In this document: piece after piece, positions 9,394-27,200 of the stretch
How the letters are laid out: the number at the start of each line of letters is the position of its first letter
How positions within the stretch are numbered: position 1 is the first letter of the stretch
Assembly (NCBI RefSeq): GCF_003149745.1
Contig: NZ_QGEG01000002.1
Span: 124,001-188,000, forward strand
Source: Flagellimonas aquimarina
GTDB taxonomy: Bacteria > Bacteroidota > Bacteroidia > Flavobacteriales > Flavobacteriaceae
DNA: 64,000 bases
Reading direction: 5' to 3'
Made by a program: the position numbers and the translations under genes
The notes under the pieces: model-generated
What the model was told of the DNA's origin: nothing
The model's input: only the letters and a program-made list of their open reading frames with translations
Databases searched by the model: none

Positions 9394-9438
9394 CAAACCT
9401 AATGATGTTCTTATGTTATTTTTTACGGATTTCCCTAT
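9394..9438 (-). promoter_or_regulatory. Regulon promoter 1: dyad box plus TAGGTTTG, upstream of the beta-barrel gene
   Basis: On the minus strand, the -7 element TAGGTTTG occupies 9401-9394. The box occupies 9438-9423 and reads ATAGGG-AAAT-CCGTAA, with the invariant CCGTAA half nearest the promoter. Exactly 21 bases separate CCGTAA from TAGGTTTG. The predicted transcript start is near 9388, giving a leader of about 40 bases. Confidence 0.72.
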
Positions 9439-9515
9439 GTGTATGCCCGTTTTTATACCCAAAGACTCTATGGGACAATGGATGAAATCCACTTGGCTGG
9501 GTCATAGACAGCTCT

Positions 9516-10448
9516 TTAAAAGTCTGCAATTAGAATTGGGTAAAGATTTACATCAATTTCAAGCCTATTTGCCTCATCTACAACATCTTTCAAGCTGTAA
9601 ACAGTTCTGGACCCTTCTAAAGGAGGTGCATCTCCTATGACTATTGTAATTCTTTGTGATTCAGAAGCCCAGGACATTTGGTTTAGTGTTAGAAAAATAC
9701 CATCATAGACAGATTCGGGAGCATCTCCACCTCCAAAAACCCTTATATTGTTTAAAAAGGCAATTGCATGATCGTAGTTGGTATTCAAATCTATACTATT
9801 GTACCACTCGGTTGTAGAATTGGCATCATTGTAAACTGCCATGCCAAGCCTTACACCGGCAGGAAGTTGGTCAATGATGTTGTTGATTGAATTTTTTACT
9901 TGAGCAATGTCATCGCTCATGCTAGAAGTATTATCAATTAGGAAGACCAGGTCCGTATTGGTCACTGCATTATCATTTATGATATCTATGATTGCACCGG
10001 GCACTTCTTGAGCATTATTGGCATTATAAACGGTGCCTCCTGTGAACTCCGCCAAAACATCAAAAGCTTCTGAGGCAGAGATTACTCTGGTTTGACCAAT
10101 GACTTCTGTGGAAGTTTCGCTGATTACATCGCCATTAAAAGCCTCAATTTTATAATAATACTGAGAGTTGGAATTGACAGTTAGGTCGGTAAAAGCTTCT
10201 ATACTTTTAACTTTGTCGATCAAGCTGAAAACAACATCTTCTAAGGCAAAGTTAAAATCTGCGCGATAAATATTATAGCCTTCTGCTTTGGAGACCGCAT
10301 TCCAAGTTAGTTCTACTTTTAGCGCAAAATCTGTTGATGCGACCAGTGCATCTGGCTGTAAAAGTACCAAAGGCTCATCCTTGGTACAGCTGAGAGGTAA
10401 AGCAATACATAGCAGGAACATTGCTACTTTGATTATATTCTTATCCAT
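9516..10448 (-). CDS. Lipoprotein with fibronectin III and von Willebrand factor A domains
   Basis: 310 residues. The lipoprotein signal ends LPLSC (lipid Cys21). Residues about 35-120 look like a fibronectin type III module (LTWNAV, YNIYR, YYYKIEAFN). Residues about 160-310 form a vWA domain with the MIDAS start FLIDNTSSM (Asp172, Thr174, Ser176) and a later IVIGDAPP strand. vWA domains bind partner proteins through a metal ion, so a surface adhesion or assembly-scaffold role is likely. It has its own copy of the shared promoter (10475-10519). It lies directly downstream of the CsgG-like operon on the same strand. Confidence 0.82.
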   Translation of the reverse strand: MDKNIIKVAMFLLCIALPLSCTKDEPLVLLQPDALVASTDFALKVELTWNAVSKAEGYNIYRADFNFALEDVVFSLIDKVKSIEAFTDLTVNSNSQYYYKIEAFNGDVISETSTEVIGQTRVISASEAFDVLAEFTGGTVYNANNAQEVPGAIIDIINDNAVTNTDLVFLIDNTSSMSDDIAQVKNSINNIIDQLPAGVRLGMAVYNDANSTTEWYNSIDLNTNYDHAIAFLNNIRVFGGGDAPESVYDGIFLTLNQMSWASESQRITIVIGDAPPLEGSRTVYSLKDVVDEANRLEIDVNLYPILIADF

Positions 10449-10474
10449 TTTCTTTGTGTTTAGTGATTACACAC

Positions 10475-10519
10475 CAAACCTAATCTTGAACGGGTGATTA
10501 TCCTTACGGTAATCCATAT
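10475..10519 (-). promoter_or_regulatory. Regulon promoter 2: dyad box plus TAGGTTTG, upstream of the vWA lipoprotein gene
   Basis: On the minus strand, TAGGTTTG occupies 10482-10475. The box at 10519-10504 reads ATATGG-ATTA-CCGTAA. The spacer between CCGTAA and TAGGTTTG is exactly 21 bases. The predicted start of transcription is near 10469, about 20 bases before the ATG. Confidence 0.75.
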
Positions 10520-10755: not shown

Positions 10756-11583
10756 TCACTTTGAAAGTGTAACACATTCAAGCTTTGCATTAGGGTTTTT
10801 AAATTTTTCCAATAGTAAATCAAACTTTTTTCCCTTGATTTTGCCAACTGAAAAATCCCCCTCGACACGGTTTATATTAAACTCAAGAATTTCTGCTTTT
10901 CTAGTTCGGTTTCCACTTTTGATGATTTCGTAAACCTTGAATTTGTCTTTTGCTGTTATCCCTTCTTTTTCTCCAGCTATGATAATGATTTCGCCTCCAC
11001 CTTTTGATTCGTATACATCTTCTATGTCAACGGTTATAGGGAACGTTTCAATAATGAATGAACGTATTTTCTTTTGTAATATCCGTAAGACCGAAGACAA
11101 TGTTTCGGTCTTGGTGCCGCCGGCACAGGTTAAACAAAAGGCCGGAGTATTAAAGTTTTTTGAACCTATTACATGTCCATTTTCAATATCATTTATGGTT
11201 ATGCTAAAAGTCATGGAGCATTCGTAGAGCCCGTTTTTGTCCTTTCCATAGGTTAATGAGGTAAGGTTGCCCCCAACAATGGCCTCCGCCCCATTTTGCT
11301 TGCCTTGTTCAATTACGTAACCTTCAATATATTCTATGTTTTTTTGAACTTCAATCTCCTTATATATAATGGTTTGTGAATATTTGGTTCTGTCCAGCAC
11401 CGTGAATCTATTCCGCTCAGAAAAAAGTTCTTTTACTTTTTCAGTTATTGCTTCCGCTTCTGCGTAGTTATTGATATCAGTTGTTTTAAATGGTGCCAGT
11501 CCAATATATTCAACTTGGCCTGAAACCAATAAAGGTGCCGTTAGTAAAATGAGAAGCGCAATGATTTTGGTTTCTTTTATCAT
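10756..11583 (-). CDS. Periplasmic CsgG-like domain protein (paralogue A)
   Basis: 275 residues with a type I signal peptide ending at LLVSGQ and no lipobox cysteine. The first 140 mature residues follow the CsgG pattern: AEAITEKVKELF, then FTVLDRTK, then an EIEVQKN helix, then GAEAIVGGNLTSL. CsgG itself is an outer-membrane lipoprotein pore for curli export; lacking the lipidated cysteine, this protein is more likely soluble in the periplasm. The C-terminal 90 residues are an added small beta domain (GGGEIIIIAGEKEGI). A clear paralogue lies five genes upstream in the same operon (14087-14953). It is the last gene of the operon starting at 19490. Confidence 0.7.
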   Translation of the reverse strand: MIKETKIIALLILLTAPLLVSGQVEYIGLAPFKTTDINNYAEAEAITEKVKELFSERNRFTVLDRTKYSQTIIYKEIEVQKNIEYIEGYVIEQGKQNGAEAIVGGNLTSLTYGKDKNGLYECSMTFSITINDIENGHVIGSKNFNTPAFCLTCAGGTKTETLSSVLRILQKKIRSFIIETFPITVDIEDVYESKGGGEIIIIAGEKEGITAKDKFKVYEIIKSGNRTRKAEILEFNINRVEGDFSVGKIKGKKFDLLLEKFKNPNAKLECVTLSK

Positions 11584-11635
11584 GGTTTTGTTTTAAGAGT
11601 CATGGTTGGATGGTTATATTTTCAATGTGTGGATA

Positions 11636-12703
11636 TTAACCCTCTTGCATTGCACGATCCATTTCTCCTTGGTGTCTTGTACGTTTGAATTCGGTTCTGG
11701 CAATTTCTCCCATTTTTTTTCTCTTTTTAGCTCTACGTGTTTCTCTCTCATTACCAGAAACAGGGCTGGATGTATTTACGGTTTTTGTTGGTTTTTTATC
11801 ATCAACCAAATTGGTGTTTGGTGTTTTTACTGAATCATTGGTTTTTTTGCTTTCAACTGGTTCGGTACTTGAATCGGAAGTTCCAGAATTTTGTCCATTG
11901 TTTTTGGTCCTTGTCTGTATTTTTACTTTTAACTGTTGAGCAGAAGAGTGGCAATTGGATTCGGTCTCAATAGCGCCCAATATTTCTAGAGCTGTTTCAT
12001 TATTGTTTTTTGAAATTTCGGCTTTTGCCCGTACCAAGTTCTTTTCACAAGTTTTGTTCAAATACCCATTATAAGCTTCATCTAGCTTTCTTTGTATTTT
12101 TTTGTAGCAATCGCCACCTACTTCCTTTGGTACTGGATACAACAAAGCAATTGCCTCATTATACCTTTTCTGCTCGACCATGGTATCTGCCTCGTTATAA
12201 AGTCTATTGCAGTTAGAGCGGTAATATTCTAAAATTTTGGTCTTGGCATCTTGTAAAAAGTTTTTGATTTTTTCTCCTTTTGTCTTTATCTGAGAGATGC
12301 TTTGGTTTATCGCTTCTTTTTTGGAATAGCCATCACCGGTAATTTCTTGATTAAACACACTGTAAACCTTTCCTGTTTTTACTTCTTTGATAATAAAATT
12401 TAGTTCTACATCAATTACATGAACATTTTGTAGACCTTCCACAATTTTGTGGTCATATATTTCATATTTGGGATACATGATGAACTTATCGGTATAACCT
12501 TCCCCAGCTATGCCATAATTGCTCACCATTCTTAGCATTTTTGATTCAATCTTTGAAAGCTGTCCACTGGTCAGGCCTTCCATTTGAAGAGGAACAACAA
12601 CCGATATGTTCAAATTGTCTTCGGATTCATTATTGTTCAAAGCCTGAATCGAATTAAAACTCGCCAGGAAAAGAAGTGCTATTAGATATATTTTAGTTTT
12701 CAT
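11636..12703 (-). CDS. Secreted protein of unknown function with helical repeats and basic tail
   Basis: 355 residues with a signal peptide ending near SIQA. Residues about 30-150 form an alpha/beta region (NISVVVPLQMEGL through EITGDGYSKKEAINQSI) that looks like the CsgG/TolB-N class of small periplasmic folds. Residues about 155-265 are two or three TPR-like helical pairs holding five cysteines (SNCNRLYNEAD, GGDCYKKIQ, KTCEKNL, ESNCHS). The last 90 residues are low-complexity, Ser/Thr/Lys-rich, then strongly basic (RRAKKRKKM). No named family recognised. It lies nine bases downstream of the next gene in the operon. Confidence 0.6.
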   Translation of the reverse strand: MKTKIYLIALLFLASFNSIQALNNNESEDNLNISVVVPLQMEGLTSGQLSKIESKMLRMVSNYGIAGEGYTDKFIMYPKYEIYDHKIVEGLQNVHVIDVELNFIIKEVKTGKVYSVFNQEITGDGYSKKEAINQSISQIKTKGEKIKNFLQDAKTKILEYYRSNCNRLYNEADTMVEQKRYNEAIALLYPVPKEVGGDCYKKIQRKLDEAYNGYLNKTCEKNLVRAKAEISKNNNETALEILGAIETESNCHSSAQQLKVKIQTRTKNNGQNSGTSDSSTEPVESKKTNDSVKTPNTNLVDDKKPTKTVNTSSPVSGNERETRRAKKRKKMGEIARTEFKRTRHQGEMDRAMQEG

Positions 12704-12712
12704 GATTGTTAG

Positions 12713-13636
12713 TTATAATATGTTGATATAAATGGTACCTCTGCTATTGTCAAACTTCACGGGCAAGTCTATTTTGTCAAAAAAACGGTCTAGTTTGCGT
12801 TCAATTTTGCGTGCCGTCATATTAGTGCAATTCTTTGGGTCACGGACGGGGTATCTATATTCCTCGACCATTAGTTTGGTCTCGGTCACAAAAGTCACTA
12901 CATAATAATTTTTGTAGGCAGTTTTTTCCAACCAATCTTCAATTAAATATTTTAGTTTTGTGTTTTCTGAAGGAACATCATCATCCATGGTAATGTTGGC
13001 ATCTTCGGAAAGACTGAATTCCATTTTAACGGTCTTTCCTTTTTCCCTAATCTCCGCCCATTTTTCATTCATTTTTCTTAAAAATTCGTCGAGAAGTAGT
13101 TCATTGTTGTCATTCTTCTTTTTCAATGCCGCTCCTATCAATAAAATCTTATCTGGCGTATAGTACATATTTCCCTCAATAGGTACACTTGCCATAGAAT
13201 TACCGTTGTCGGTTACGTTCGCTTCCAAGATGATCGTTGCCCTATTTCCTTGATCTAGATTACTTATTATTACATCTATTTCCACAATAATATCAGAAGG
13301 AATATTTCTGAAAATTCTATTCTTGAATTCTGTTTGTGTTTCTTTTGTGACTACTTCATCTCGCATTCTGGCTTTTAGAGTTGTTTCAAAATCCAAGGTA
13401 GTGTACTCTCTATCATCAAAAGCTTGTTTTACTTTTGAGATGGCCACTCTAACTTCTGGTTGTTCATCCATAATAGTCCTTAGATCCTCTCCTTTTACAG
13501 TTCTGGGCAATACCATTATACTAGGTTGTATCGTATTTACCTCTTCACAACCTCTTTGCGCCTGAAGATCAAAGGTATTTACAACATATAGTATGGAAAC
13601 CAAAAAGATGTTGCGTATCAATGTCATATTTTTCAT
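12713..13636 (-). CDS. Secreted protein of unknown function (DUF6175-like)
   Basis: 307 residues with a signal peptide ending around DLQAQ. The mature part opens with a PSIMVLPRT strand and later repeats alpha/beta elements (DIIVEIDVIISNL, RATIILEANVTDN). The overall look recalls Bacteroidota DUF6175 proteins, which I can only suggest. Two halves of similar design may be present (residues 30-200 and 200-307). It overlaps the upstream lipoprotein gene by four bases, so it is part of the CsgG-like operon. Confidence 0.6.
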   Translation of the reverse strand: MKNMTLIRNIFLVSILYVVNTFDLQAQRGCEEVNTIQPSIMVLPRTVKGEDLRTIMDEQPEVRVAISKVKQAFDDREYTTLDFETTLKARMRDEVVTKETQTEFKNRIFRNIPSDIIVEIDVIISNLDQGNRATIILEANVTDNGNSMASVPIEGNMYYTPDKILLIGAALKKKNDNNELLLDEFLRKMNEKWAEIREKGKTVKMEFSLSEDANITMDDDVPSENTKLKYLIEDWLEKTAYKNYYVVTFVTETKLMVEEYRYPVRDPKNCTNMTARKIERKLDRFFDKIDLPVKFDNSRGTIYINIL

Positions 13637-14085
13637 AGTCCAAATTTTTTAATTATTCCATTTTCTTCTAAATCCTTTCTTAAGGCCAACATATTTATGG
13701 TCATATCAATTCTGGCCGATCTTTTACCCCTCTTAACCTTTGAAACTGATTGGGTGTAATTTGTAATAAAGGTTCCCATGCGGGAGTTGTAGAAAGAATT
13801 TAGGTAGTCCTTGTGCTTTTTATATTCAACATGTTCGTTGATTCCTATCAAGGGTTTGTTGAAAGGGGAATTTGATATGCCTCTAAAGAATAGATTTTGA
13901 AATGCTAGTCTCTTTGCGTTAAAAATGGCTTCTTCTTGATTTTCACCAATATCGAAGCTACTTACGGTTAAGGATTCCAGCCTGTCATTGGAAATGTAAT
14001 TCACCTCGGCTGAATCAAAATCACCATGTTTATTGCTTCCACAAGCCATTAAAAGAAGAACCATTATTGTAATTGTTTTTTTCAT
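13633..14085 (-). CDS. Lipoprotein, LPP20/FlgT-N-like
   Basis: 150 residues. The lipoprotein signal ends LLLMAC (lipid cysteine at residue 15). The EEAIFNAKRLAFQNLFFRGI helix resembles the helix of LPP20/FlgT-N and related envelope lipoproteins, which often accompany CsgG-like proteins. The resemblance is by pattern only. It is one base from the end of the upstream CsgG-like paralogue and overlaps the next gene by four bases, so these three are surely cotranscribed and probably function together. Confidence 0.65.
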   Translation of the reverse strand: MKKTITIMVLLLMACGSNKHGDFDSAEVNYISNDRLESLTVSSFDIGENQEEAIFNAKRLAFQNLFFRGISNSPFNKPLIGINEHVEYKKHKDYLNSFYNSRMGTFITNYTQSVSKVKRGKRSARIDMTINMLALRKDLEENGIIKKFGL

Positions 14086-14086
14086 G

Positions 14087-14953
14087 CTATTTAGATTTAC
14101 AGATTAATTTGGCCTGGGAATTAAACTTATCCAAAAGCTCTCTTCCTCCCTTTATTACTACCGCGGTGGATAATTCTTCTCCTTCAGTGGCATCGATTTT
14201 TATATCAGCAACCCATTTTTCACGTTGGGTCTGCGTATTTCCAACCGTAACCATGGACAATTCATAGATGCTGATTTTATCGTTCTTTTTAGCGCCATTG
14301 GCTTCTCCTGTGTTGATTAGGATTTTTTTAGCAGCCCCGCCCTTTTCTTCTTCAATGGAAAGAATCGCAATTGATTTGGAAACAAACTTGTTCAGGAATT
14401 TTTTAAGATTTTTTGTCAAGGAGTTTAACCCGCTTACAAATGCTTCTGGCTTTGTAAGTCCTCCTAAAGATTTTGTGTTGGTCAATCCTATTTTGAAGGT
14501 TTTGGTCTCTAGAGTTTGTGAGGTTTCAGTATCAATTATATCAATTGAAAAACTAAATATGGCCCTTTGTAACGATTGTCCTTCAAGCTTTGATTTACCT
14601 AGTATATTCAGAGCTTTTTTATACTCAACACTTATTAACTTACCTCCAACTATATTTTTTGCACCGGCAATTCTGCCCTGATCTACAACTTTTGCATTTA
14701 TGGATGTGATTTGTTTTTGTATTTCTTGCTCCGTTAAAACTATGCCCAAACTTTCCCTGTCCAAAACTTTGAAACTTCTGGAGTTGACCAAAATTTCCTT
14801 TACTTTTTGAAAAATCAATTCCGCCTCAACATAATCGCTTGAAGGATTAGAGGATTTTATGGACTGTAGACCAATGGTCGACTCTTGGCCAAACGTAAAT
14901 AGACTAAGAAATAACAAGGGGATTAAACATTTTTTCATTCTCATGATTTTCAT
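14087..14953 (-). CDS. Periplasmic CsgG-like domain protein (paralogue B)
   Basis: 288 residues from 14953; a second Met at residue 6 (14938) gives a tidier signal peptide (MKKCLIPLLFLSLFTFGQ). There is no lipobox. It aligns by eye along its length with the protein at 10756-11583: the AELIFQKVKEIL helix, FKVLDRESL, EQEIQKQ, GAKNIVGGKLISVEY, FSIDIIDTET, and a C-terminal domain starting GGAAKKILINTGEANG. Two diverged copies in one operon suggest a hetero-oligomer rather than recent duplication. The lipidation site of true CsgG is absent. Confidence 0.72.
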   Translation of the reverse strand: MKIMRMKKCLIPLLFLSLFTFGQESTIGLQSIKSSNPSSDYVEAELIFQKVKEILVNSRSFKVLDRESLGIVLTEQEIQKQITSINAKVVDQGRIAGAKNIVGGKLISVEYKKALNILGKSKLEGQSLQRAIFSFSIDIIDTETSQTLETKTFKIGLTNTKSLGGLTKPEAFVSGLNSLTKNLKKFLNKFVSKSIAILSIEEEKGGAAKKILINTGEANGAKKNDKISIYELSMVTVGNTQTQREKWVADIKIDATEGEELSTAVVIKGGRELLDKFNSQAKLICKSK

Positions 14954-14991
14954 TTTTGTGTTTTGCTATTTTAATTTCAATTTTTGTGCAC

Positions 14992-15951
14992 CTAGTCGAT
15001 ATCGTAAAAAGCGTCGACGTAATCGTACTTGAACTTTATAATGATTTCTTGCTCTTTATTGATAAACCCTTGCTGCCCATCAACTTTTACCGGAGCAAGA
15101 CCGTTTAGAAAAACAAAAGCGTCTTCATATTTTGGTGCAATTACTTCCTCTCCTTTTCTGTTGATAAAACCCCATTTTCCATCTACTTTAACAGGAGCTA
15201 AATCTTCGGAAAAGCCCCAAGTTTGTTCGTACTTTGGTTCAACAATAGTTTTACCGTTCTTTGCGATGAACCCCCATTTTCCACCTTTGCTCACAGGTGC
15301 AAGACCTTCTGAAAATGGTAGTGCAAAATCAAAATTTGGAGGAATTACCATAATATTTTCTTTATTGATAAACCCTTCAAATCCATTAACTCCTACTGGG
15401 GCCAATTTTTCAGAGAATAGATAGGCACTGGTGTATTTATATGGTATGATGACCTCTCCAGATCTGTTTATAAAGCCCCATTTATTTGCTTTTTTTACAG
15501 GAGCCAAATCTTCAGAAAACGATATGGCTTCTTCAAATTCTGCTTCAATCACCATATTGGCTTCATGGTCTATAAATCCCCATTTCCCGTTTAGTTTTGT
15601 TGCCGCTAAGCTGTCAGAAAACGGCTGTGCACTTTCGTATATCATCGGAATCTTAATTTTATTGTTCTTATCTACAAAACCCCATTTCCCATTTTTTTTG
15701 ACCAAGGCCAAACCCTCAGACATTTTCCACGCCATTTCATATTTAAAGGGTATAACCTCTTTCCCACCTTTGTCAATGAATCCCCAGTTTTTTCCTTCAC
15801 GGGCAAGGGCAAGCGCTTCTACATTGCTGGTGGCAGAAAAATAGAAGTACCCCCCAATCAGTATCATAATGACTGCTGACAATATGAGAATGGGCAGTCT
15901 CTTTTTTTTTCTTCTTTTTGATTGTGATTTTTTTCTATCTAGAGGTTCCAT
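14992..15951 (-). CDS. Membrane-anchored WG-repeat (KWG) protein
   Basis: 319 residues. A very basic N-terminus (KKSQSKRRKKKR, residues 8-19) precedes a single transmembrane helix at about 20-41; the rest should be periplasmic. It holds eight WG repeats of about 33 residues, each built as KWGFI-x-K-x-G-x-x-VIPxKYE followed by xxFSEGLAPVKxxG. WG repeats are beta-rich modules of unknown biochemical function, probably binding surfaces. It lies 11 bases downstream of the LEA-like lipoprotein gene and 38 bases upstream of the CsgG-like paralogue B gene. Confidence 0.85.
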   Translation of the reverse strand: MEPLDRKKSQSKRRKKKRLPILILSAVIMILIGGYFYFSATSNVEALALAREGKNWGFIDKGGKEVIPFKYEMAWKMSEGLALVKKNGKWGFVDKNNKIKIPMIYESAQPFSDSLAATKLNGKWGFIDHEANMVIEAEFEEAISFSEDLAPVKKANKWGFINRSGEVIIPYKYTSAYLFSEKLAPVGVNGFEGFINKENIMVIPPNFDFALPFSEGLAPVSKGGKWGFIAKNGKTIVEPKYEQTWGFSEDLAPVKVDGKWGFINRKGEEVIAPKYEDAFVFLNGLAPVKVDGQQGFINKEQEIIIKFKYDYVDAFYDID

Positions 15952-15962
15952 ATTGTAATTGT

Positions 15963-16907
15963 CTACAAGTGTGAATGTATCTTTTGATAAGCGGAGCAGT
16001 AATCAGGGCCATCAATATTTGGGTTAACCCTTATGCTGCCAAAGGGATTCGTCTCTATATCAAACTCTTGAAGAAAGGGGATTTGAAAATCATAGCCCTC
16101 TATGCTTATGGTTACCGATCCGGCACCTATGTATTTTGAACTGTCACTGCTTAGAAAAAAGGTGCCCAAATTTTGTAATATGTTTAGATTGTTCGACTCA
16201 ATGTCTAGTGGAATCTTAATGGTTTGTAAACTAGGGGCATCAACTATGGTATCTAAAACTCCCTCTAGAACAACTCTATTGGTGCTTTTTGATTTAAGTG
16301 AAATTTCAATTTTCCGAATTTTGTAATCAAAAGATTGACTGTTGTGGATTCCAATTTTGATGCGAAAATTTGATTTGGTGGGATTACTGTTTGAGAACGG
16401 GTTGATTTTTTCAATTTCAATATGCTTAAAGACCAAATCGCTGCTCAACATATTGTTAGAAATAAAGCTTTTTGCCTGGTAGGGAATTTTTAGTTCAAAG
16501 CCTTTCCTTATACTTTTTATTGGATGCACGGCAAAAGCCTCACCAACAAAATAAAAGTCAACTCTATCCTTAGATAAGATCTGTTTGTGTTTTTTTTGCA
16601 GTTGAGCAAGGCTAAGATTACAACTAAAGGGAAGTGCGATAGTATCCTTTGGTTTAATCTGTATTGGAGCGATCAATTTTCCATTACCAATCTTTCCTCC
16701 ATCATAGTTAATATCAAAAAACAACTCCTTTAATTGGTATTTAAGCTTCGTTGGATTGTATATGTAAGAATCAATTGAAAACTGCAAAATAGAGTCGTTT
16801 ACACTTTTAAATTTTAAGTTATCATTAGAGATGAATATGGGCTCTGCTACATTACAAGAGCAAAAAGAGAGCACGCAGATGAGAAGGTATAACATTGACT
16901 TTTTCAT
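15963..16907 (-). CDS. LEA14/WHy-like lipoprotein with two domains
   Basis: 314 residues. The lipoprotein signal ends LSFCSC (cysteine 19). Two beta domains of about 120 residues each (about 25-150 and 165-285) look like water-stress/LEA type 2 domains: an FSIDSYIYNPT strand motif in the first, FRIKIGIHNSQ in the second, each followed by a PIQIKPKDTI or IKIPLDIES segment. LEA-like lipoproteins are common in Bacteroidota envelopes, with no defined biochemistry. It overlaps the ABC transporter gene upstream by four bases. Confidence 0.68.
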   Translation of the reverse strand: MKKSMLYLLICVLSFCSCNVAEPIFISNDNLKFKSVNDSILQFSIDSYIYNPTKLKYQLKELFFDINYDGGKIGNGKLIAPIQIKPKDTIALPFSCNLSLAQLQKKHKQILSKDRVDFYFVGEAFAVHPIKSIRKGFELKIPYQAKSFISNNMLSSDLVFKHIEIEKINPFSNSNPTKSNFRIKIGIHNSQSFDYKIRKIEISLKSKSTNRVVLEGVLDTIVDAPSLQTIKIPLDIESNNLNILQNLGTFFLSSDSSKYIGAGSVTISIEGYDFQIPFLQEFDIETNPFGSIRVNPNIDGPDYCSAYQKIHSHL

Positions 16908-18682
16908 ATGCTGTCCTTTTTGCTGAGTGAAATAAATATCAAGAGATACATGATAAAGCTCAGTATCAGAACTGCCAATACATTTGTGGCCAGATTATTG
17001 AAGGCGCCACCTATTAGAACACCTTTGTCAATTAAACTCTCATCATAGAGTCCTAGTTGGTTCAAAGCGCCTGAAGCTTCACATTTACAATCATTTTTAT
17101 GGTAACCGTCCGGGTTGAATTCAGGAATTAAAACGCTTTCGGTTTCAATTGCACTGTTTTCAAAATAAGTATCCTGTAATCTTGCGAATCCTTCGGTGCC
17201 CCATCTGCCTAAAGTGAAAAAGCTTAAGATTTCAATAAAACGGGTGTCTAGTTTTGTCATTACACCTGCCAACATTATTTGGGGCATGAGCGTAATGGGG
17301 ACTACGGTCATAACTTTTTCTGTGTTGCTAAAGTAAGATGACAGAAAAAGACCTATTAAAGTAGCAGAACAAGAAATCATAAATAGAAAACCAACACTTT
17401 CCCAAAATGGTCTTAGGTAGGTTTCTGGAAATTCGGTTATTGCATTGATCTTAAAATTGAAATAGATGATGGCTACAAATACTACAACCTGTATTAAGGC
17501 AATTAGTGAAAGAATAAGCAGTTTTGAGACAATGTATGTGTTTATGTTTAGGTTATACATGCGTTCTCTTTTGTAAATGGGCAATTCGCTTACGATTTCT
17601 TTTGCTGAGTTACTAACTCCAAACCAAATAGCAGAAATGGCGGTTAAAAAGATCACACCTATTCTAAATTCGCTAAAAACCAGACTGACAAGTCCTCCAA
17701 TGATTATTGGTTGCAGCAATAACAATAATAGATTACTGTGGTCATTGAGCTTAATGTTCAAGTACCTCTTTGCAAGCCAATAAAGTTGTTGAAAGCTAGA
17801 ATCTGGCCTGCGTTTATTCAGTTTTGGGTTTAAGTTCAAAGAATGAGAATCCTCTTTTGGTGGATGGTAGTTTTTTTTAACCTTCTCCAGATCGCTCATT
17901 TTACTGTAAACTTCAATGATGCTGTCAACATTAAAATGTTCCGTTATTTTATTGGGAAGTCCCTTATAAACCAAATGACCCTTTACTCCAAGAAATACAA
18001 CTTCATCCACATAGTTAAGATCTTCAGGTTTATGGGTAACCATTATAATGGTGGTGCCTTCTTGAGCTAAATCCCTTAAACTTTTTAGAAAACTGTCAAT
18101 TGTTTCAGGATCTAAAGGCGAAGTTGGTTCATCTAAAAATAGAATAGAAGGTTCGGTTAGCAGTTCAACTGCAATTGAAATTCTTTTTCTTTGACCACCG
18201 GACAACTCTTTTACTTTTTTGTCCTTGATGTCTTTTTGTCCTTGTTGATTGCCTTGGTCATGTTGATTTAGTTTTAAGCTTTTTAAAACTTTGTTGATGC
18301 GTATATCGATTTCTTCTTTTGGTGTACCATCCGGCAATCGCAGTTTTGCTGCATAAAAAAGTGTTTTGTAAACACTCAGTTCTCTATGAATGATATCATC
18401 TTGTGGAACGTAGCCAATACTTTTTTTGACCAGATCATAATTATCGATCAGTGAAAGCCCGTTTATATAAACTTCACCCGAGGTGGCAGGGTTATCGCCA
18501 TTTAAACATTTGAGCAATGTAGATTTTCCGCAGCCGGAAGGTCCCATGAGGGCAACAAAACTTTTATTCTTTATTTCTAGGGACAGCGGTTGAAGCCCAA
18601 TTTTGTTTTTAGGATACTTCTTTGTTATACCAATTGCCTGAATGGATAAATCTTTTTCTTTCATATTGGTATTAATTGGCAA
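16904..18682 (-). CDS. ABC transporter half-molecule, ABCG type (ATPase then permease)
   Basis: 592 residues. Residues about 12-245 are the ATPase: GPSGCGKST Walker A, LSGGQRKRISIAVELL signature and LFLDEPTSPLD Walker B with the following VTHK switch. Residues about 320-590 are an ABC2-type membrane domain with six hydrophobic segments and a loop before the last helix holding Cys-x-Cys (NDCKCEAS). ATPase-first fusion is the ABCG/White arrangement, so it should work as a homodimer exporting a lipid or hydrophobic molecule. The first ATG overlaps the M48 gene by 11 bases; a Met at codon 7 (18664) is an alternative start. Confidence 0.88.
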   Translation of the reverse strand: MPINTNMKEKDLSIQAIGITKKYPKNKIGLQPLSLEIKNKSFVALMGPSGCGKSTLLKCLNGDNPATSGEVYINGLSLIDNYDLVKKSIGYVPQDDIIHRELSVYKTLFYAAKLRLPDGTPKEEIDIRINKVLKSLKLNQHDQGNQQGQKDIKDKKVKELSGGQRKRISIAVELLTEPSILFLDEPTSPLDPETIDSFLKSLRDLAQEGTTIIMVTHKPEDLNYVDEVVFLGVKGHLVYKGLPNKITEHFNVDSIIEVYSKMSDLEKVKKNYHPPKEDSHSLNLNPKLNKRRPDSSFQQLYWLAKRYLNIKLNDHSNLLLLLLQPIIIGGLVSLVFSEFRIGVIFLTAISAIWFGVSNSAKEIVSELPIYKRERMYNLNINTYIVSKLLILSLIALIQVVVFVAIIYFNFKINAITEFPETYLRPFWESVGFLFMISCSATLIGLFLSSYFSNTEKVMTVVPITLMPQIMLAGVMTKLDTRFIEILSFFTLGRWGTEGFARLQDTYFENSAIETESVLIPEFNPDGYHKNDCKCEASGALNQLGLYDESLIDKGVLIGGAFNNLATNVLAVLILSFIMYLLIFISLSKKDSI

Positions 18683-19490: not shown

Positions 19491-19544
19491 AGGTAGTGTT
19501 GGTTTGGTTTGACAAGATTTTTTAGGTTGAATGATCTTGCTAAA

Positions 19545-19654: not shown

Positions 19655-20323
19655 TCAGATTAATCCTAGGTCTTTGGCATTGGCTACCAATTGGATAGTA
19701 TTCTTGGCTCGGAGTTCGTCCTTTAATCTGTTTAATCTTTTCTCAATTGAACTTAGACTACTGGGAGAAATACCGTTTTGATCAAAATACCTCGCTATTT
19801 CATCCTGTGTGAGACCGTTGGACAAGTGAGATAGTAGTCTTACATCATAATCCTCTACCTCAAAGATTCCTCTTTGCCTTATTGCTCCGGATAGTTGTGG
19901 TGAAAGATATGTACCTCCTGTTTGCACAGATTCAACAGCTTTTAACAGGTTTTTTAATCCACTTCTTCCTTTAACCACATAACCTGAAATGTCTTGGCTT
20001 TGAAACAGTTTTTTTACCGCTGCCGGCTTTTCTTCAACAGAACAAACAATGATAGGGGTTTTATGGCCTAATGCCCGGATTTTTTTTATCAATTGCTTTC
20101 CATTTGCAATCTTGTCCTCTCTATGATCCTCATTAAATGACAAGTCTGTAATGAGAAGGTCAAACGCCTCTTGTTCTTTTACCGATCGCATAAATTTAAG
20201 ATAGGCATCACCACAATATTGTGATAGCACAACTTCGCCCACACCCAGTTCTTGCTTTAGCATAACAGCTATGCCATAGCCTATGCTATCCAAGTCTTCT
20301 ACAACTAAAACTTTTTTGAACAT
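19655..20323 (-). CDS. Response regulator with atypical LuxR/NarL-type DNA-binding domain
   Basis: 222 residues. The receiver domain (1-130) has the acidic pair near Asp10, phospho-acceptor Asp60 in LLITDLSF, VCSVEE and VVKGRSG. The C-terminal domain (about 155-222) is LuxR-like (LSNGLTQDEIARYF, then KRLNRLKDELRAKNTIQLV) but has about four extra residues (DQNG) between the two helices of the HTH. The start codon overlaps the kinase stop by one base, so the pair is cotranscribed. It lies immediately upstream of the promoter 3 operon, and four dyads in the region make it the likely controller of this regulon. Confidence 0.87.
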   Translation of the reverse strand: MFKKVLVVEDLDSIGYGIAVMLKQELGVGEVVLSQYCGDAYLKFMRSVKEQEAFDLLITDLSFNEDHREDKIANGKQLIKKIRALGHKTPIIVCSVEEKPAAVKKLFQSQDISGYVVKGRSGLKNLLKAVESVQTGGTYLSPQLSGAIRQRGIFEVEDYDVRLLSHLSNGLTQDEIARYFDQNGISPSSLSSIEKRLNRLKDELRAKNTIQLVANAKDLGLI

Positions 20324-22191
20324 TAAACTCCAGATTGGTTAGGAATGGAAATCTCGATTGAGGCGCCTATTCCCTGTTTTGGAGTAAAAGTAAAAGTACC
20401 ACCACAACTTCGAATACGGGAAACCGCATTTTGTAATCCAAGACCGTACTTTATATCTGTAGGAAAACCAATACCATTGTCCTTATAGTCCAATCGTATG
20501 TTTTTTTTGAAGTATGAAAATTGCAATCCTACCAAATTGGCTTGACTGTGTTTTTTCATATTGACCAAAAGCTCCTTTAATGCCCTGTGCAAGGCCACAC
20601 ATTTTTGTTCGCTAAGAGTTGCCCATTGGATATCTTCCAGGCCTTTGGTTACTATTGTTATGCTATCGCTTTGAAAAGTCAATATAAGACTCTTTAGTTC
20701 GTCTAGAAAATGCTCATGAATGTTTACAGGACTGTTTTCATGAGATATTTCACGTGTTCTTGCATAAATATTTTCCAAATGATCAAGAAACTCGGTGTTT
20801 TTTATTCGCTCTTTGTTTTCAACCCTTGCCATTAAACTAAAAATATCGTTCGCCAAACCGTCATGGAGCCTTTGACTGATATGCTTTTCAGTGTTATAGA
20901 TTTCCTTTAGTTTCTCCTTTTTATGACGCTGTTTCAGTAGAAAAAATAAGAAGGTTCCTCCCATAAGTAAAACGGCACTAAACGAAAGAAAAAGTATTTT
21001 TTGGGTTTCTTGTTGGGCCAACTGGGCTTCTTGTTTGGCACTTTCAGCTTCTAGGGCCAATAACCGGGCCTTTTCTTCTTTATCCTGATATTTAAGGTGT
21101 GCAAATTGGTTTTTAACCTTCAATTCTTCTTTATATAGGCTGTCCTGTAGAAAGATATACCTGTTTTTATATGCTATGTTATCTGGCTTTAGCCGGAATA
21201 AAATCTGCAACGCTTCAATTTCGGCTCTGGGGACTTTTAATTCTTTTGATAGACCTATTAATGTATCTGCATACTTTTTTGAGATGTCTGGATTGGAGTG
21301 CTCATAGAACTCTGAAAAACCAATAAAACTTGAAAGTAACCCTCTTTTATCGCCAATATTTTTCCTTATTTTCAAAGCAATAAAATAGTCATGTAAAATA
21401 TTATCATTGGTAAGTTTCCATTTTGCCTCGGCCTTGTTATGAATCAGCCTTGCGTATTCTTCTTCACTAAAGTCTTCTGGAATCGTTTCAATTGCATTGC
21501 CCAAGAGCTCTATGGCTTTTGTATAGTTGGCGTTTTTTGAATGGAGTATGGCCAAATTATTTATATATATGATTTTGTCAACAAGATTTTTTTCAGCATT
21601 TATTGCCTTTTCATAATTGTTCTTTGCGTTTTCAAAATCATTTAAACTAGTATAGTTGTTGCCCAATTCGTTCCAGCACCAGGTTATGAACTTTTTATCC
21701 TTTTGCTTATTAAAAAACTGTAGCGCTTCAGTTATGGACTCCTTAGATCCATAAAAATCATTTTGGCGATATTGTAATTGGCCCATATTTAATAGTTTCC
21801 TCCCGACCTGAGTGCTATCAGACAATTCGAGAAAGCTGTTTTTTGCTCTTTGATAGTAATAAAATGCGCTATCAAATTGCTGAGCTTCTCTAAAATCGTA
21901 GCCTACATATGATTCTCCTTTGGCACGATACTCCAGGGCATTGGTTTCTGTTGCCAATGTCATCAATAGTTTGTCATATTTAAGGACAGAATCATGATTG
22001 CCTTTTTCTTCAAAGAATTTTGACTTAAGAAGGATTTCCTCAAAAACAATGGTATCTGCCGGTTTTAATTGGAAGCTATCTAAAGGATAACTCTGTGAAA
22101 GAGGGGTGGAGACGGTATGTGATTTTTCTTGCTGACATGAGAACAAAAAGCTGCCAAATGATATTATCAGTAAAAATTTGTACGTGCTCAT
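20323..22191 (-). CDS. TPR sensor histidine kinase (HisKA_3/NarX-like)
   Basis: 622 residues. The N-terminal signal has FLFSC (Cys19), then a periplasmic region of TPR-type helical repeats (about 50-350), a coiled coil (about 360-398) and one transmembrane helix (about 399-418). The kinase core has the phospho-acceptor His443 in RLHDGLANDIF, an N box with Asn544 (ELLVNMKKH), DNGIGF at 571-576 and GLGLQNAVSRI. This is the common Bacteroidota layout for kinases paired with LuxR-type regulators; the TPR part should sense an envelope signal or partner protein. The promoter region (22192-22340) carries no copy of the TTACGG box. Confidence 0.9.
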   Translation of the reverse strand: MSTYKFLLIISFGSFLFSCQQEKSHTVSTPLSQSYPLDSFQLKPADTIVFEEILLKSKFFEEKGNHDSVLKYDKLLMTLATETNALEYRAKGESYVGYDFREAQQFDSAFYYYQRAKNSFLELSDSTQVGRKLLNMGQLQYRQNDFYGSKESITEALQFFNKQKDKKFITWCWNELGNNYTSLNDFENAKNNYEKAINAEKNLVDKIIYINNLAILHSKNANYTKAIELLGNAIETIPEDFSEEEYARLIHNKAEAKWKLTNDNILHDYFIALKIRKNIGDKRGLLSSFIGFSEFYEHSNPDISKKYADTLIGLSKELKVPRAEIEALQILFRLKPDNIAYKNRYIFLQDSLYKEELKVKNQFAHLKYQDKEEKARLLALEAESAKQEAQLAQQETQKILFLSFSAVLLMGGTFLFFLLKQRHKKEKLKEIYNTEKHISQRLHDGLANDIFSLMARVENKERIKNTEFLDHLENIYARTREISHENSPVNIHEHFLDELKSLILTFQSDSITIVTKGLEDIQWATLSEQKCVALHRALKELLVNMKKHSQANLVGLQFSYFKKNIRLDYKDNGIGFPTDIKYGLGLQNAVSRIRSCGGTFTFTPKQGIGASIEISIPNQSGV

Positions 22192-22665: not shown

Positions 22666-23436
22666 ATGGGGTTCAATAGACTAACAGAGGCACACCTGCC
22701 TAGTTTTATTTATTTGATAGATGCTATCAAGGAAGAGGAATACGACGTTGACTTTAAGGAAATTGCAGATAGAGAGAGCAAAACTCATGAAATGGTAGTG
22801 CCCAGATCTATAGATAGAGCTTTTGAACTCAGGGAAAAGTTGATTAGCGGATGGGGTGGAAAAAAACCAGGTCGTCCACAAAAAAAAACCTTGGATGTGC
22901 TCACCGCCTTTATAGAAGGTAATTCAAGGCTTTCTTTTTTAGAGTATACCATTGAATACAAAAATGAAATAGAAGCATATTACGCACATAACAAGCCTGA
23001 GCAAAAATGGATTGATTTAATTTTTGGCAAAAAAATGAATAGTGCGCTACAAAGAATTTCTGAAATGGAGGAGAAAAGTGATGATATTTCCGATATTTTG
23101 GAGAGCTATAGTTTGGAAGAGCTTAAGAAAAGTTTGGGGCCAAAGGCCAAAGAGCAACTAATGCTACTTTTAGAAGAGTGGAAAAGTGATGAACTGGAAC
23201 CTTTTTTTAAGAGCTTGCTAGAAAGGCGTTTGGAAAAACTAGAAGATAAAATCGTAACATCAAAAAAAAAGTACCGCCGTTTTGGACTGCTAAGCCTTTT
23301 ATTCTTGCCACAAGATGATAAACTGCTTTTTGAAGAAAACATGTTTTCGGCAATCAAAGATTATCAAGATGATATTATAGATGACACGGGCGTTGATGAA
23401 TCATTGCTTGAAATTCTCTCTGAATTCAGTAATTAA
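22666..23436 (+). CDS. Protein of unknown function, helical, with possible DNA-binding-like N-terminus
   Basis: 256 residues, no signal peptide, almost entirely alpha-helical and charged. The N-terminal 90 residues (DRAFELREKLISGWGG, KKPGRPQKKTLDVLTAFI, RLSFLEYTIEY) recall a module seen at the N-terminus of many Bacteroidota regulators and NTPase-associated proteins, in which a WGGKxPxxxTLxxLxxFxG pattern precedes an effector. The remainder has a coiled-coil-like Glu/Lys-rich segment (about 130-200) and an acidic C-terminus. It ends 26 bases from the convergent NACHT-GDPD gene. Function unknown; a partner or regulator of that NTPase is one possibility. Confidence 0.6.
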   Translation: MGFNRLTEAHLPSFIYLIDAIKEEEYDVDFKEIADRESKTHEMVVPRSIDRAFELREKLISGWGGKKPGRPQKKTLDVLTAFIEGNSRLSFLEYTIEYKNEIEAYYAHNKPEQKWIDLIFGKKMNSALQRISEMEEKSDDISDILESYSLEELKKSLGPKAKEQLMLLLEEWKSDELEPFFKSLLERRLEKLEDKIVTSKKKYRRFGLLSLLFLPQDDKLLFEENMFSAIKDYQDDIIDDTGVDESLLEILSEFSN

Positions 23437-23462: not shown

Positions 23463-26400
23463 TTATTGATTTAATAATTCCTGAAGTTCTTTTGGATTGT
23501 CCGTGATAATGCCATTGATATTTTTGGCTGTTAGTCTTTGCATTGAACTTCTTGAGTTTACATTCCAAGCATATATTGAGCTATATTTTTTCTGTAATTT
23601 CTTGTACCAAGAATCAAAAATCAATATGCTGTGGTATTCCACCCCCACAATATCTACGTTTGGTAGTTTTTTAATGGAAGAAGGTCCTAAAACGAAGACA
23701 CCTACCGTAAGTTCTGGAAAACGTTCCTTAAGTTCTTCACAAAAGGACCTGTTGAAGGAAAAAATGTACACTTGTTCTCCCATTTTTTTTTCAGTAATGT
23801 CACTGACCAATTTTTCTAGTAATTGGTTGTAGTTTTTACCTGTTTTAACCTCAATCAGTAGCTTTGTTTCATACTTTGAAATTAAGGTTAAGGCCTCATT
23901 AAGAGTGGGAACACCGGTATTTGCAGAAGTATCGTTCAAATTTAATTTTTGAATCTCTTCTAAAGTTAGATTGCTGACAGAACCTTTTCCATTTGTGGTC
24001 CTATTTACACTTTTGTCGTGCATGAGCACTAAATGCCCATCTTTGGACATCCTTATGTCGATTTCAACGATATCAACGCCTAATTGAAGCGAATTCTTTA
24101 TTGCTTCCATAGAATTTTCGGTAAATAGAGCTGCCCCTCCCCGATGTGCCACAATTTTGGGTGTTTTCAACATCTTAGTGGTATTTTCAAAAGTAATATT
24201 AAACTTCCCTGAATTGTTTTGCCATTCTTTATCATTTATAACGGCCTCCAAAACATCGCCATTTTTTACAGTAAATTTTAAGTGCGATTCATTTCTACCG
24301 TATTGAATTAAATCATTTTCTGGAAAGCTAACCCAATTTCCATTGTTTTTTCTAAACACAAGTGCTCCATGATTAAGTTTTTCCAAACTAGGTCTATTCC
24401 ATGTGTTGCCCAAACTCATTCCTAAAAAACCGGATTTTGTGCCGGCAGGGGAAACAAAGCCCACAAAAGATCCCAATTTCACCTTTCCATTGGCATTTAT
24501 CTGAATTGCCTTTTCAGTGTCATCTTTAATGCCGTTTACGACAAACACGTTTTTTAAGCCCTTGTCATGATGGATTAAATTACTGTTGATGTTTATATTG
24601 TATCCATGTTCATTTTGCCAATGCGATTCGTTTTGGAACCTACTAACTAATTTAAAACATATTGGTGCAGACAACACGATTACTATACCAATTGGAATTA
24701 GGTACATGGATTTCTTTGTTTTTTTTGGTACAGGAGAGTTTCTGTAGTAATCCCGAAGTGATGGGTGTATAAATTCATACCCAGAACCTACAGGCCTAAC
24801 AAAACCAATTTCAGACAGGTGGAGCAAAAATGAGCGAATGAATAATGGGAAACCTTTTTCAAGCGATAGTATAATCCTTAATAACCAATGATAGATGGCA
24901 TCCAAACCGCCAAACCAGGCAAATGCCAGAACCCCAAAGCCAAAGGCAGTTTTTAAAGCTTTGAACACTGCCGTGACCTCCATTTCTGTTAGGCCAACAT
25001 AACTTCCTAATAGAGCACCAGTGACCAAAGTGGAAATAAGAGCTGACTTAAGAGCATTGGTAAAAGATTTGGTTATTGGAGTTCGCTTTGTAATCTCAAG
25101 TTTTTCTGTTTGTTCAAGAATGACCCTATTGCCCTGTAAAAAACCAAAAAGCCCAAAAAAAAGATAGCCTAGAAAGAAACCCGCAAACCCTGCAAACAAG
25201 TATTTGTCCTGTAAATACAATTCTTGGTTAAGCCAAGCATTGATGGATGATACATCATTAGTGAAAAAATTAAAAATGTAAAAAATAGGGACAACGATAA
25301 TTCCCAATAAAAGACCACCTGCAAATCCCGAGATGAAGTAATTTTTAAGACTGCCAATTATTCGTTCAACAGGTCTTATGTCAAAATCTCTCCGTTCCCA
25401 ATTGCTTCGGATACCAAAAAATATGGAGAGCAATATCCCTACAATAATACCAACTAGAGCCTCAGTAGAGGAAAACATGCCGTTCATTAACATTTCGCCT
25501 CCGTATTTGGCGGACCTAGGTGTTGTAAAACCGTAATAAATCCCCAGCACAGATATTAAGGGGACAGTCCTTTTTACAATATTGGCTACCGGCGGAATGA
25601 GTTTGTGGTCTTTGATTTTAAAAATTGATTCTTCAATTTTATATGATGCATTAAAAAATAACTTAATAAGGTCAATGGATGTGGTGGTTATGCCCCCTAT
25701 AATGGCCGCGTCCCAAAAGTCAAAAGGTCCCGCTAGAAATAAACCCGCCGCTATGGACACCAATGTAGCTCCTAATAATCTAGAGACAAGATAATATGTA
25801 ATGACAGACCATCTAAAATCAAGATAAGAGGGCTGCAGCTCTTCAGGGAAGAACAGCCCAGAATTCAGCGCTATCTTCCTTAACCAAATTTTTAGCTTCT
25901 TTTTTTTGTGGTTAGATAGAAAACTAGAACCGTTTAGCATTTTTAACTCGTACCACCCCCATATCTGGTTAAAAAAATCCTCATGTGAGAGCTGCTCGGC
26001 TCCTAAATTATCTTTAATAAATTTAGACTCGATCCCTATGAGTAAATTTAGGAAAAGGGGATACCTACAAAGAAATTTAAACTTGGGATTGGAGCGAAAG
26101 ATTTCTAATTTTTGACTGTCTCCATTTTCTTTTAAAACATTTTCAACCTGTTTGGGTTTTAAAGTTTTTAGCTCGATCAAGTTATAAGGCAACTTCCAAA
26201 ACTTGTCTTTTGTGGTGTATTCACGGTTTAATTTTCCATATGTTTCCGTTTTCATTACTACTGCTAACGAAGTTTTGGCGGATAAGGCCATCAGTTTTTC
26301 AAACAACGGAATGATGTTTTCTTCTTTGACCCGGTCCAACCCATCATATATTGGAAAAATAAGACCTCTTTTCAGTCCCGCTTCAAGCCTTTCTCCATCT

Positions 26401-26972
26401 AGATGGTATATTTTGGATGCTTTATTTCTGGTCCATTGAAGAAGTGATTTTTGGCCGTTCCAGTCAGATAATGAAATAAGTATAGGTGTAAAATCTGAAT
26501 CTACTTCAATACCCCTTTTTATATAGTCAAAAACTGCAAACGTTTTGCCTACCCCAGACTCACCAAAAATGATAAAACTGTTTTTTTGTTTGTGCTTTAC
26601 TGTGGATAATAATCTGTATAAAGACCCATCATGTGTTTCGAACAGATCGTTATCTGTATGTAAGCGCCAATTTAGGGTTTCAATATATTCCAGATTGTTG
26701 TTGCCAGAAACTCTAAGGGTGCTTTTGCTTCTGGTAATTGCTTGACTTCGTAATGAATCGCGAAGGAATTCCTTTTTTGTATCCGATAAGATCAGGTCAT
26801 CCAAATTAGTACTCCTCTTTTGATTGAAGTATTTTTTTTTGAGGAACCCTATCAAAAGAATACTAAGTATCCATAGCAGAATGGAAAGAACACCTTCTTT
26901 TAGTAGCTGGTATTTAATAAAGAACAATACCAAAGCTACTGTTACTAAAATCAGTATTCTCTTCAGTTTCAT
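23463..26972 (-). CDS. Membrane NACHT-family NTPase fused to glycerophosphodiester phosphodiesterase (GDPD)
   Basis: 1169 residues. Order: two N-terminal transmembrane helices (about 5-23, 27-47); a NACHT-type NTPase (about 125-345) with Walker A GESGVGKT at 137-144 and Walker B FPIYDGLD around Asp210; a polytopic segment of about seven to eight helices (390-700); a short soluble part ending FIHPSLRDYY (734-743); one more helix (755-775); a beta-rich linker (785-930); and a GDPD domain (936-1169). The GDPD active site is intact: HRG 943-945, Glu970 and Asp972 in VEIDIR, His985, Glu1041, and a closing ITDNP. GDPD enzymes hydrolyse glycerophosphodiesters released from phospholipids. With NACHT in the cytosol, the GDPD part is probably periplasmic. 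Confidence 0.82.
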   Translation of the reverse strand: MKLKRILILVTVALVLFFIKYQLLKEGVLSILLWILSILLIGFLKKKYFNQKRSTNLDDLILSDTKKEFLRDSLRSQAITRSKSTLRVSGNNNLEYIETLNWRLHTDNDLFETHDGSLYRLLSTVKHKQKNSFIIFGESGVGKTFAVFDYIKRGIEVDSDFTPILISLSDWNGQKSLLQWTRNKASKIYHLDGERLEAGLKRGLIFPIYDGLDRVKEENIIPLFEKLMALSAKTSLAVVMKTETYGKLNREYTTKDKFWKLPYNLIELKTLKPKQVENVLKENGDSQKLEIFRSNPKFKFLCRYPLFLNLLIGIESKFIKDNLGAEQLSHEDFFNQIWGWYELKMLNGSSFLSNHKKKKLKIWLRKIALNSGLFFPEELQPSYLDFRWSVITYYLVSRLLGATLVSIAAGLFLAGPFDFWDAAIIGGITTTSIDLIKLFFNASYKIEESIFKIKDHKLIPPVANIVKRTVPLISVLGIYYGFTTPRSAKYGGEMLMNGMFSSTEALVGIIVGILLSIFFGIRSNWERRDFDIRPVERIIGSLKNYFISGFAGGLLLGIIVVPIFYIFNFFTNDVSSINAWLNQELYLQDKYLFAGFAGFFLGYLFFGLFGFLQGNRVILEQTEKLEITKRTPITKSFTNALKSALISTLVTGALLGSYVGLTEMEVTAVFKALKTAFGFGVLAFAWFGGLDAIYHWLLRIILSLEKGFPLFIRSFLLHLSEIGFVRPVGSGYEFIHPSLRDYYRNSPVPKKTKKSMYLIPIGIVIVLSAPICFKLVSRFQNESHWQNEHGYNININSNLIHHDKGLKNVFVVNGIKDDTEKAIQINANGKVKLGSFVGFVSPAGTKSGFLGMSLGNTWNRPSLEKLNHGALVFRKNNGNWVSFPENDLIQYGRNESHLKFTVKNGDVLEAVINDKEWQNNSGKFNITFENTTKMLKTPKIVAHRGGAALFTENSMEAIKNSLQLGVDIVEIDIRMSKDGHLVLMHDKSVNRTTNGKGSVSNLTLEEIQKLNLNDTSANTGVPTLNEALTLISKYETKLLIEVKTGKNYNQLLEKLVSDITEKKMGEQVYIFSFNRSFCEELKERFPELTVGVFVLGPSSIKKLPNVDIVGVEYHSILIFDSWYKKLQKKYSSIYAWNVNSRSSMQRLTAKNINGIITDNPKELQELLNQ

Positions 26973-27155
26973 TCTTTGGACTCTAATTTAATGCACACTT
27001 AGATAATGGTTTATTTCCAATCAAAGCACTATTTGGTGGTGAAGTCCGTAAAGATTATTTGAAAAGGTACATTCTTTCTTTAAGAATGATAAAAGAACCA
27101 TTTCATATACTGGGGAAAGCGCAATTTCAATCATTTTAAAATGATAAGCAAGTAA

Positions 27156-27200
27156 TTACGGAAAGCCGTAATAAAAATAGGAATGATGAGATTAGGTTTG
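27156..27200 (+). promoter_or_regulatory. Regulon promoter 4: perfect dyad box plus TAGGTTTG, upstream of the three-gene lipoprotein operon
   Basis: The box TTACGG-AAAG-CCGTAA at 27156-27171 (arms extend to 7 bp, ATTACGG/CCGTAAT) is followed after exactly 21 bases by TAGGTTTG at 27193-27200. The predicted transcript start is near 27206, so the first usable ATG is 27219. A second palindrome, ATCATTTTAAAATGAT, lies upstream at 27130-27145. Confidence 0.78.

Follow-up and report, generated by a model that had tools for sequence, protein, structure and literature searches.

A CCGTAA dyad placed 21 bp from the −7 box at four promoters around a two-component locus of Flagellimonas aquimarina, probably read by the neighbouring response regulator and repeated within the kinase gene

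The stretch of DNA analysed here (the window) comprises 64,000 nucleotides of Flagellimonas aquimarina, a member of the Flavobacteriaceae (assembly GCF_003149745.1, contig NZ_QGEG01000002.1, positions 124,001 to 188,000 of the forward strand). It contains two neighbouring minus-strand genes, one for a TPR histidine kinase of 622 amino acids (20323–22191; TPR_12, HATPase_c at E 2.6e-6 and a UhpB-like region at residues 434–619) and one for a response regulator of 222 amino acids (19655–20323; Response_reg at E 7.6e-9 and DUF5932 at E 6e-6), that are proposed to act as partners. Around them four intergenic sites share one layout, in which a strict or relaxed form of the dyad TTACGG-N4-CCGTAA is followed after exactly 21 base pairs (bp) by the −7 element TAGGTTTG, and a fifth copy is located inside the kinase open reading frame (ORF). 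From sequence comparisons, the probable reader of the switch shared by the four promoters is the nearby regulator encoded at 19655.

Three of the intergenic sites are on the minus strand: site 1 (9394–9438, ATAGGG-AAAT-CCGTAA-N21-TAGGTTTG) upstream of the ORF at 8831–9349, site 2 (10475–10519, ATATGG-ATTA-CCGTAA-N21-TAGGTTTG) upstream of the vWA gene at 9516–10448, and site 3 (19545–19589, TTACGG-GTTC-CCGTAA-N21-TAGGTTTG) between the regulator gene and a putative operon beginning with an M48 peptidase gene, a position that is also occupied in the same-genus loci L046–L049. Site 4 (27156–27200, TTACGG-AAAG-CCGTAA-N21-TAGGTTTG) is on the plus strand, upstream of the genes at 27219–28542. A profile of such sites matched sites 1 and 2 at E 1.2e-4 and 1.9e-4, respectively, both being themselves sequences of the model. 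The original prediction had placed four copies at exactly these coordinates, strands and spacing, two with perfect and two with relaxed distal halves, and all of this was confirmed. It had also stated that the intergenic DNA of the window holds no further copy; there are indeed only four exact matches, but a fifth copy lies in the kinase gene, outside the DNA that had been searched. Only exact matches were counted in the window, since with up to three mismatches 11 are found against 5.6 expected.

The genome-wide search for CCGTAA-N21-TAGGTTTG, which had been suggested as a check, returned exactly these four sites in 3.6 Mb, clustered in an 18-kb stretch that contains the regulator gene; with the pattern reversed as a control, nothing was found. 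The equally suggested search for the 16-bp dyad was less telling: it occurs in exact form at two loci only (sites 3 and 4), but with one mismatch allowed it falls to control level (10 matches vs. 14 in the control per strand, exact ones included), and as a genome-wide marker on its own it was rejected. Relaxing the −7 element to TAnnTTTG added one match in the genome (C6:94387) against two control matches, and this was not taken as a site. It is the combination of dyad, spacing and −7 element that is diagnostic.

In 397 genomes of the family CCGTAA-N21-TAGGTTTG, i.e., the proximal half and the −7 box with the distal half left free, gave 67 matches in 56 genomes compared with 23 for the reversed control, which sets the chance level at about 0.06 matches per genome. 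Thirty-one sites from 30 loci were printed, two of them the window's own, and among the 29 foreign ones the free distal half was exactly TTACGG in 13 and one base off in four more (17/29 with at most one mismatch); the remaining 12 consisted of two with ATGCGG and about ten resembling chance matches. On this pattern the dyad is a real element in relatives. The consensus of 38 sites, a set chosen for its fit and hence illustrative, is TTACGG-N4-CCGTAAGG-N19-TAGGTTTG.

The spacing was also scanned with no sequence imposed on the dyad. Any 6-N4-6 inverted repeat with at least five of six pairs was accepted within 1.5 kb downstream of 99 regulators in 96 loci (80 stretches plus 16 loci from the same genus or order), and TAnnTTTG was then sought at 10–32 bp. 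Ninety dyads were found at exactly 21 bp, 16 at 15 bp and at most three at any other spacing, and 71 of the 99 regulators had at least one site at spacing 21. The peak at 15 bp was rejected as a second class, since by eye 15 of its 16 members are the same sites detected through an overlapping palindrome, TTCC-GTAA-GGAA, and one is unrelated. This second palindrome, lying six bases further downstream and present in at least 15 sites, could hold a second dimer.

The receiver domain of the regulator (Response_reg) covers residues 5–130, with D60 invariant in two alignments, and DUF5932 spans residues 154–211. The UhpA model aligns over residues 85–212 with a score far below its cut-off, and a profile of 50 regulator sequences matches RcsB, VraR and DesR chains in PDB, the matches to RcsB and DesR reaching position 192; the best of these matches stop at position 180–192, before or inside the recognition helix. 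Similarity to the NarL-type response regulators RcsB, VraR, DesR and UhpA takes in the receiver and the first part of the DNA-binding domain, and TTACGG-N4-CCGTAA is not known as the dyad of any of the four.

Presence of the regulator and presence of the sites go together across genomes. A regulator profile built from 17 homologues of the 19655 protein gave a strong match (E ≤ 1e-40, a cut set after the two-humped distribution had been seen) in 144 of the 397 family genomes, and the site profile (threshold E ≤ 1e-3) found at least one site in 99 genomes: 96 of the 144 with a strong regulator and three of the 253 others (Fisher 4e-51). When the 19 genomes that had contributed model sequences are excluded, the figures are 77/125 vs. 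3/253. The sites are also close to the regulator gene, 81 of the 150 listed lying within 1.5 kb of a listed regulator and 28 more within 20 kb (109/150); with the model genomes excluded, 77 listed sites are within 20 kb and 35 are not. Since 41 of the 150 are farther off, on another contig or by a regulator outside the listing, some genomes may have remote regulon members. Strong sites of this kind were seen in G206, G212, G335, G357 and others.

The dyad varies with the recognition helix of the regulator. Regulators with the helix S-x-S-[STA]-I-E-K (S-S-IEK) have sites mainly with CGG/CCG halves and none of 53 with a CAG/CTG half, and those with the helix S-E-S-[ST]-I-D-K (E.T.DK) have at least one CAG/CTG half in 31 of 32 sites. 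Proximal CAGTAA, which occurs in two of the 53, is a different change, and the regulator of locus L061, with helix SLRSIQD, adjoins TTGCGG...ACGCAA, altered on both sides. On a tree built without the recognition helix the helix changes once and the dyad twice, so that the match was rejected as independent statistics; site and helix variants go together, as far as the tree tells, as one consistent evolutionary event.

The fifth copy, near the 3′ end of the kinase ORF (20385–20429, minus strand), reads ATGCGG-TTTC-CCGTAT-N21-TACTTTTA and lies 61 bp before the regulator ATG. In related kinases the corresponding codons are AAT-xCG/xTG-GAA-AAC-CGT-ATN...NTT-ANN-TTT-GAN, past the DNG motif of the ATP-binding domain, and in the E.T.DK clade they contain xCA and AAG instead. 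The arginine column is CGT in 82 and CGC in two of 84 kinases (background 0.15), with the highest z among the scored kinase columns. The searched residue motif is present in 75 of the 84 kinases; among these, the asparagine codon is AAC in 54/54 (background 0.32) and the isoleucine codon of the −7 element is ATT in 54/54 (background 0.49); binomial values for such codons ignore shared ancestry and are descriptive only. In the two CGC exceptions (L133 and L180) the matching G is present on the opposite arm, and likewise in L050, which belongs to another family. In seven kinases the asparagine codon is replaced by TCC (serine, background 0.13). These seven are named only, and the seemingly constrained serine columns of the scan were set aside, as AGY and TCN serines probably interconvert rarely. 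The dyad centres AAAA, TTTC and AATC come from different amino acids, the DNA signal being kept despite the change of residue. An earlier idea that the site encodes Y-G-K-P-Y relied on the wrong frame and was dropped; one of the 84 kinases matched it, at an unrelated place. At alignment columns 66–68, near the N-terminus, the codons TCA TTC CTC are common to 28–31 of the 84 genes, which may reflect relatedness or another embedded signal.

The distance to a −7 box could be followed in 76 kinases, seven of the 84 having been left out because the regulator ORF starts beyond the gap limit and one (L153, CCGTAC) having failed the half-site filter. In 63 of them TAnnTTTG was present at exactly 21 bp; none of the 76 had it elsewhere between 10 and 32 bp. 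The −7 element ends 43–66 bp before the regulator ATG. This geometry suggests that the fifth copy is an autoregulatory promoter for the regulator alone.

In a second collection, the best 80 of 534 loci from named genomes (Allomuricauda, Maribacter, Aquimarina, Kordia, Flavobacterium, Winogradskyella and others), the intragenic half-site was found in 77/80, TAnnTTTG at exactly 21 bp in 66/80 and an exactly spaced dyad within 1.5 kb downstream in 45/80. Nine of the 80 loci repeat regulator DNA from the first set, and the half-site filter demands CG at the arginine codon, so the arginine count of this collection is not independent. Paralogous TPR kinases served as a control: 13 of 18 could be placed, with arginine codons AGA (6), AGG (5) and CGG (2), and none of these 13 had CGT, the dyad or the spaced −7 element (5/18 were unplaceable). 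In the same comparison 10 of 12 family kinases were placed, nine of them with CGT, L265 being seemingly matched at the wrong place; the two family kinases missed by the search expression were that of the window and L264. In a class-wide sample the regulator was found at E ≤ 1e-35 in 12 of 295 genomes; two of these belong to a different family of the order and two to a different order, and both loci from the latter retain the intragenic site (ATACGG-AAAG-CCGTAT and ATACGG-TTTC-CCGTAT), with centres that encode different residues. By these searches the layout appears in many Flavobacteriaceae and in few genomes beyond.

The original prediction had set the dyad at −33 and left open whether a LuxR-type regulator or an alternative sigma factor reads it. 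The position has to be corrected. According to a start-site map of Flavobacterium psychrophilum, TAnnTTTG occupies −12 to −5 and is the sigma-A box (PMC9723704); because of the 21-bp spacing and this published box position, the dyad would span about −49 to −34, with its centre near −41.5, which in F. aquimarina would be the position of a class II activator. As to the reader, co-occurrence, locality and the helix match favour the regulator. Recognition of CCGTAA by an alternative sigma factor as its upstream element, without any dimeric regulator, is hardly credible: the proximal half does keep a constant distance to the −7 element and varies less than the distal half, but the −7 element, which in an alternative sigma regulon is expected to depart from the sigma-A consensus, is that consensus at all four intergenic sites (TAGGTTTG) and one base off it in the intragenic copy. 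Moreover, the same map assigns the box to sigma-A (PMC9723704), a two-fold symmetric dyad whose distal half recurs in relatives when left free is not sigma-like, and the sites track the response regulator gene across genomes. It is also highly improbable that an unlinked Flavobacteriaceae transcription factor reads the dyad and that the regulator gene is just a frequent target; the 41 listed sites away from a listed regulator would fit such a factor, but only three of the 253 genomes in which the regulator is not strongly matched have a site, and the dyad variant agrees with the recognition helix of the regulator itself.

Two further explanations concern mainly the intragenic copy. The dyads, and this one above all, might act as RNA hairpins in translation coupling or attenuation instead of DNA operators, and with G-U counted, RNA pairing would be preserved in the majority of the intragenic variants (ATGCGG and ATGTGG with CCGTAT). 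Against this, the 21 bp between dyad and TAnnTTTG are fixed, intergenic and intragenic alike; departures in S-S-IEK sites fall mainly in the distal arm with the proximal one near invariant (CCG in 51/53), unlike an RNA stem, the two central pairs are lost in 13 intragenic copies, whose arms are CAG and GCG, and the intergenic copies precede the start sites predicted for them, all of which makes hairpins very unlikely. Better placed, though still unlikely, is the idea that the regulator does read the dyad and that the intragenic copy is a repression or roadblock operator. It draws on the intragenic −7 element, which is often TACTTTTG or TATTTTTG instead of TAGGTTTG, and TACTTTTA in the window. 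Against it stand the geometry, the 21 bp to a sigma-A box being shared with the intergenic sites, and the selection of codons at the −7 element too, as seen in the invariant ATT.

The reading preferred here is that kinase and regulator form a two-component system that governs its own neighbourhood through the dyads, by class II activation and with a fifth, intragenic promoter. The kinase (20323–22191) would phosphorylate the response regulator (19655–20323), and a dimer of the phosphorylated regulator would bind TTACGG-N4-CCGTAA, with its centre near −41.5. The bound dimer would act as an activator rather than a repressor, substituting for a missing −33 contact and recruiting sigma-A polymerase at the TAnnTTTG box exactly 21 bp downstream; four such promoters would switch on about fourteen genes, and the fifth copy, within the codons of the ATP-binding domain, would raise the level of the regulator without raising that of the kinase.

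Several observations weigh against this reading. The window's intragenic −7 element, TACTTTTA, departs from TAnnTTTG in its last base, which is A, and belongs to the 13 of 76 intragenic copies without the full box at 21 bp; the intragenic dyad of the E.T.DK clade is imperfect, with a proximal half GCGTAT. No exactly spaced dyad lies within 1.5 kb downstream of 28 of the 99 regulators, nor in 35 of the 80 loci of the second collection, and 48 of the 144 regulator genomes give no site-profile match at E ≤ 1e-3, a search run with stricter filters. The 41 listed sites not placed near a listed regulator and the single evolutionary event behind the helix match count here as well, and Pfam reported no GerE domain in the 19655 regulator at E ≤ 0.001. 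With these points taken into account, the model as a whole is still held to be highly probable.

The target of site 1 (8831–9349, minus strand) is an exported-looking protein of 172 amino acids, described as a beta-barrel in the original prediction, which has no family match, and that of site 2 (9516–10448, minus strand) is a vWA-domain protein (VWA_4, E 1.6e-12). Site 3 is followed by nine genes (10756–19556, minus strand), the short gaps between which suggest an operon: an M48 peptidase, an ABC transporter, a LEA_2-like protein, WG repeats, a CsgG-like protein, an unnamed ORF, DUF6175 and two unnamed ORFs. For the leading gene of the nine, the start listed at 19556 overlaps the site, and a GTG near 19491, read from the sequence, is likelier. 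Three small genes without Pfam match follow site 4 (27219–28542, plus strand); here the listed ORF start at 27183 lies upstream of the −7 element and ATG 27219 is likelier. The original prediction spoke of about fourteen co-controlled envelope genes. The number agrees with the ORF count (1 + 1 + 9 + 3), membership of the operons being suggested by gene spacing, but seven have no Pfam match and an envelope nature of all of them is unsupported.

A linked homologue of the kinase, in which the window has the HATPase domain, was present in 81 of 81 loci examined, the window included, and the first downstream genes are diverse. Among 75 of them (71 from relatives and the window's four) DUF1508 was found six times and M48 peptidase four times; DUF6804, HSDR_N, HNH, nuclease, TerB, LpoB/CsgG, PEGA, SH3_3, vWA and DUF4177 were found once or twice each. 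Across the compared loci, the control module is constant and its targets are not. The first genes after the dyads in L103–L182 vary strongly as well, small DUF1508, DUF4177 and DUF2188 proteins and nuclease-like domains recurring beside envelope proteins. Upstream of the kinase lies a divergent gene (22666–23436, plus strand in the window). Such divergent genes belong to a family of about 241 amino acids in 53 of 81 loci, with no Pfam match for its representative, and to another, whose window member has 256 amino acids, in seven; the two families (clusters 2 and 18) could not be shown to be one (hhalign probability 21), although a short motif may be common to their N-terminal regions. A protein of 1169 amino acids with a C-terminal glycerophosphodiester phosphodiesterase domain (23463–26972, minus strand), encoded between site 4 and the regulator locus, has no site of its own.

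The DegS/DegU system of Bacillus subtilis has a regulon and a dyad that differ from those of the window, and degU is reportedly autoregulated, to judge by the title of a study cited in the DegS/DegU paper. An internal promoter directly upstream of degU has been described besides the degSU operon promoter (PMC12826050). This is a regulator-only promoter beside a kinase gene, as proposed here, in a Gram-positive organism, and the accessible text of the source mentions no codon freezing around a dyad (PMC12826050). In Porphyromonas gingivalis, FimR activates mfa1 by direct promoter binding as well as the first gene of the fimA cluster (PMC1974823). FimS/FimR, too, is a two-component pair of the Bacteroidetes in which the regulator acts on promoter DNA to activate surface genes, and differs in that no intragenic site is mentioned in the accessible text (PMC1974823). 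The FimS model of NCBIfam gave the window kinase 39.1 bits against a cut-off of 600, through the TPR part only, a weak match well short of the level for a FimS equivalog. A literature search, judged from listings and the starts of abstracts and with subscription papers mostly outside it, found no description of the dyad or of a codon-embedded promoter.

It is rather likely that codons of the ATP-binding domain serve two purposes, specifying the catalytic loop and at the same time a full promoter for the next gene (dyad, fixed spacer and −7 box) that the regulator activates, that positive feedback on the regulator alone shifts the kinase-to-regulator ratio, and that the targets are lineage-specific, in Flavobacteriaceae and a few genomes of two further families of the class. 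For a two-component family that is strongly matched in more than a third of the family genomes sampled (144/397), the model predicts the operator, its reader and the regulon. Transcription of the neighbouring gene appears to fix synonymous codons of a catalytic domain, and, if true, protein and promoter codes would here overlap in a clear natural bacterial example.

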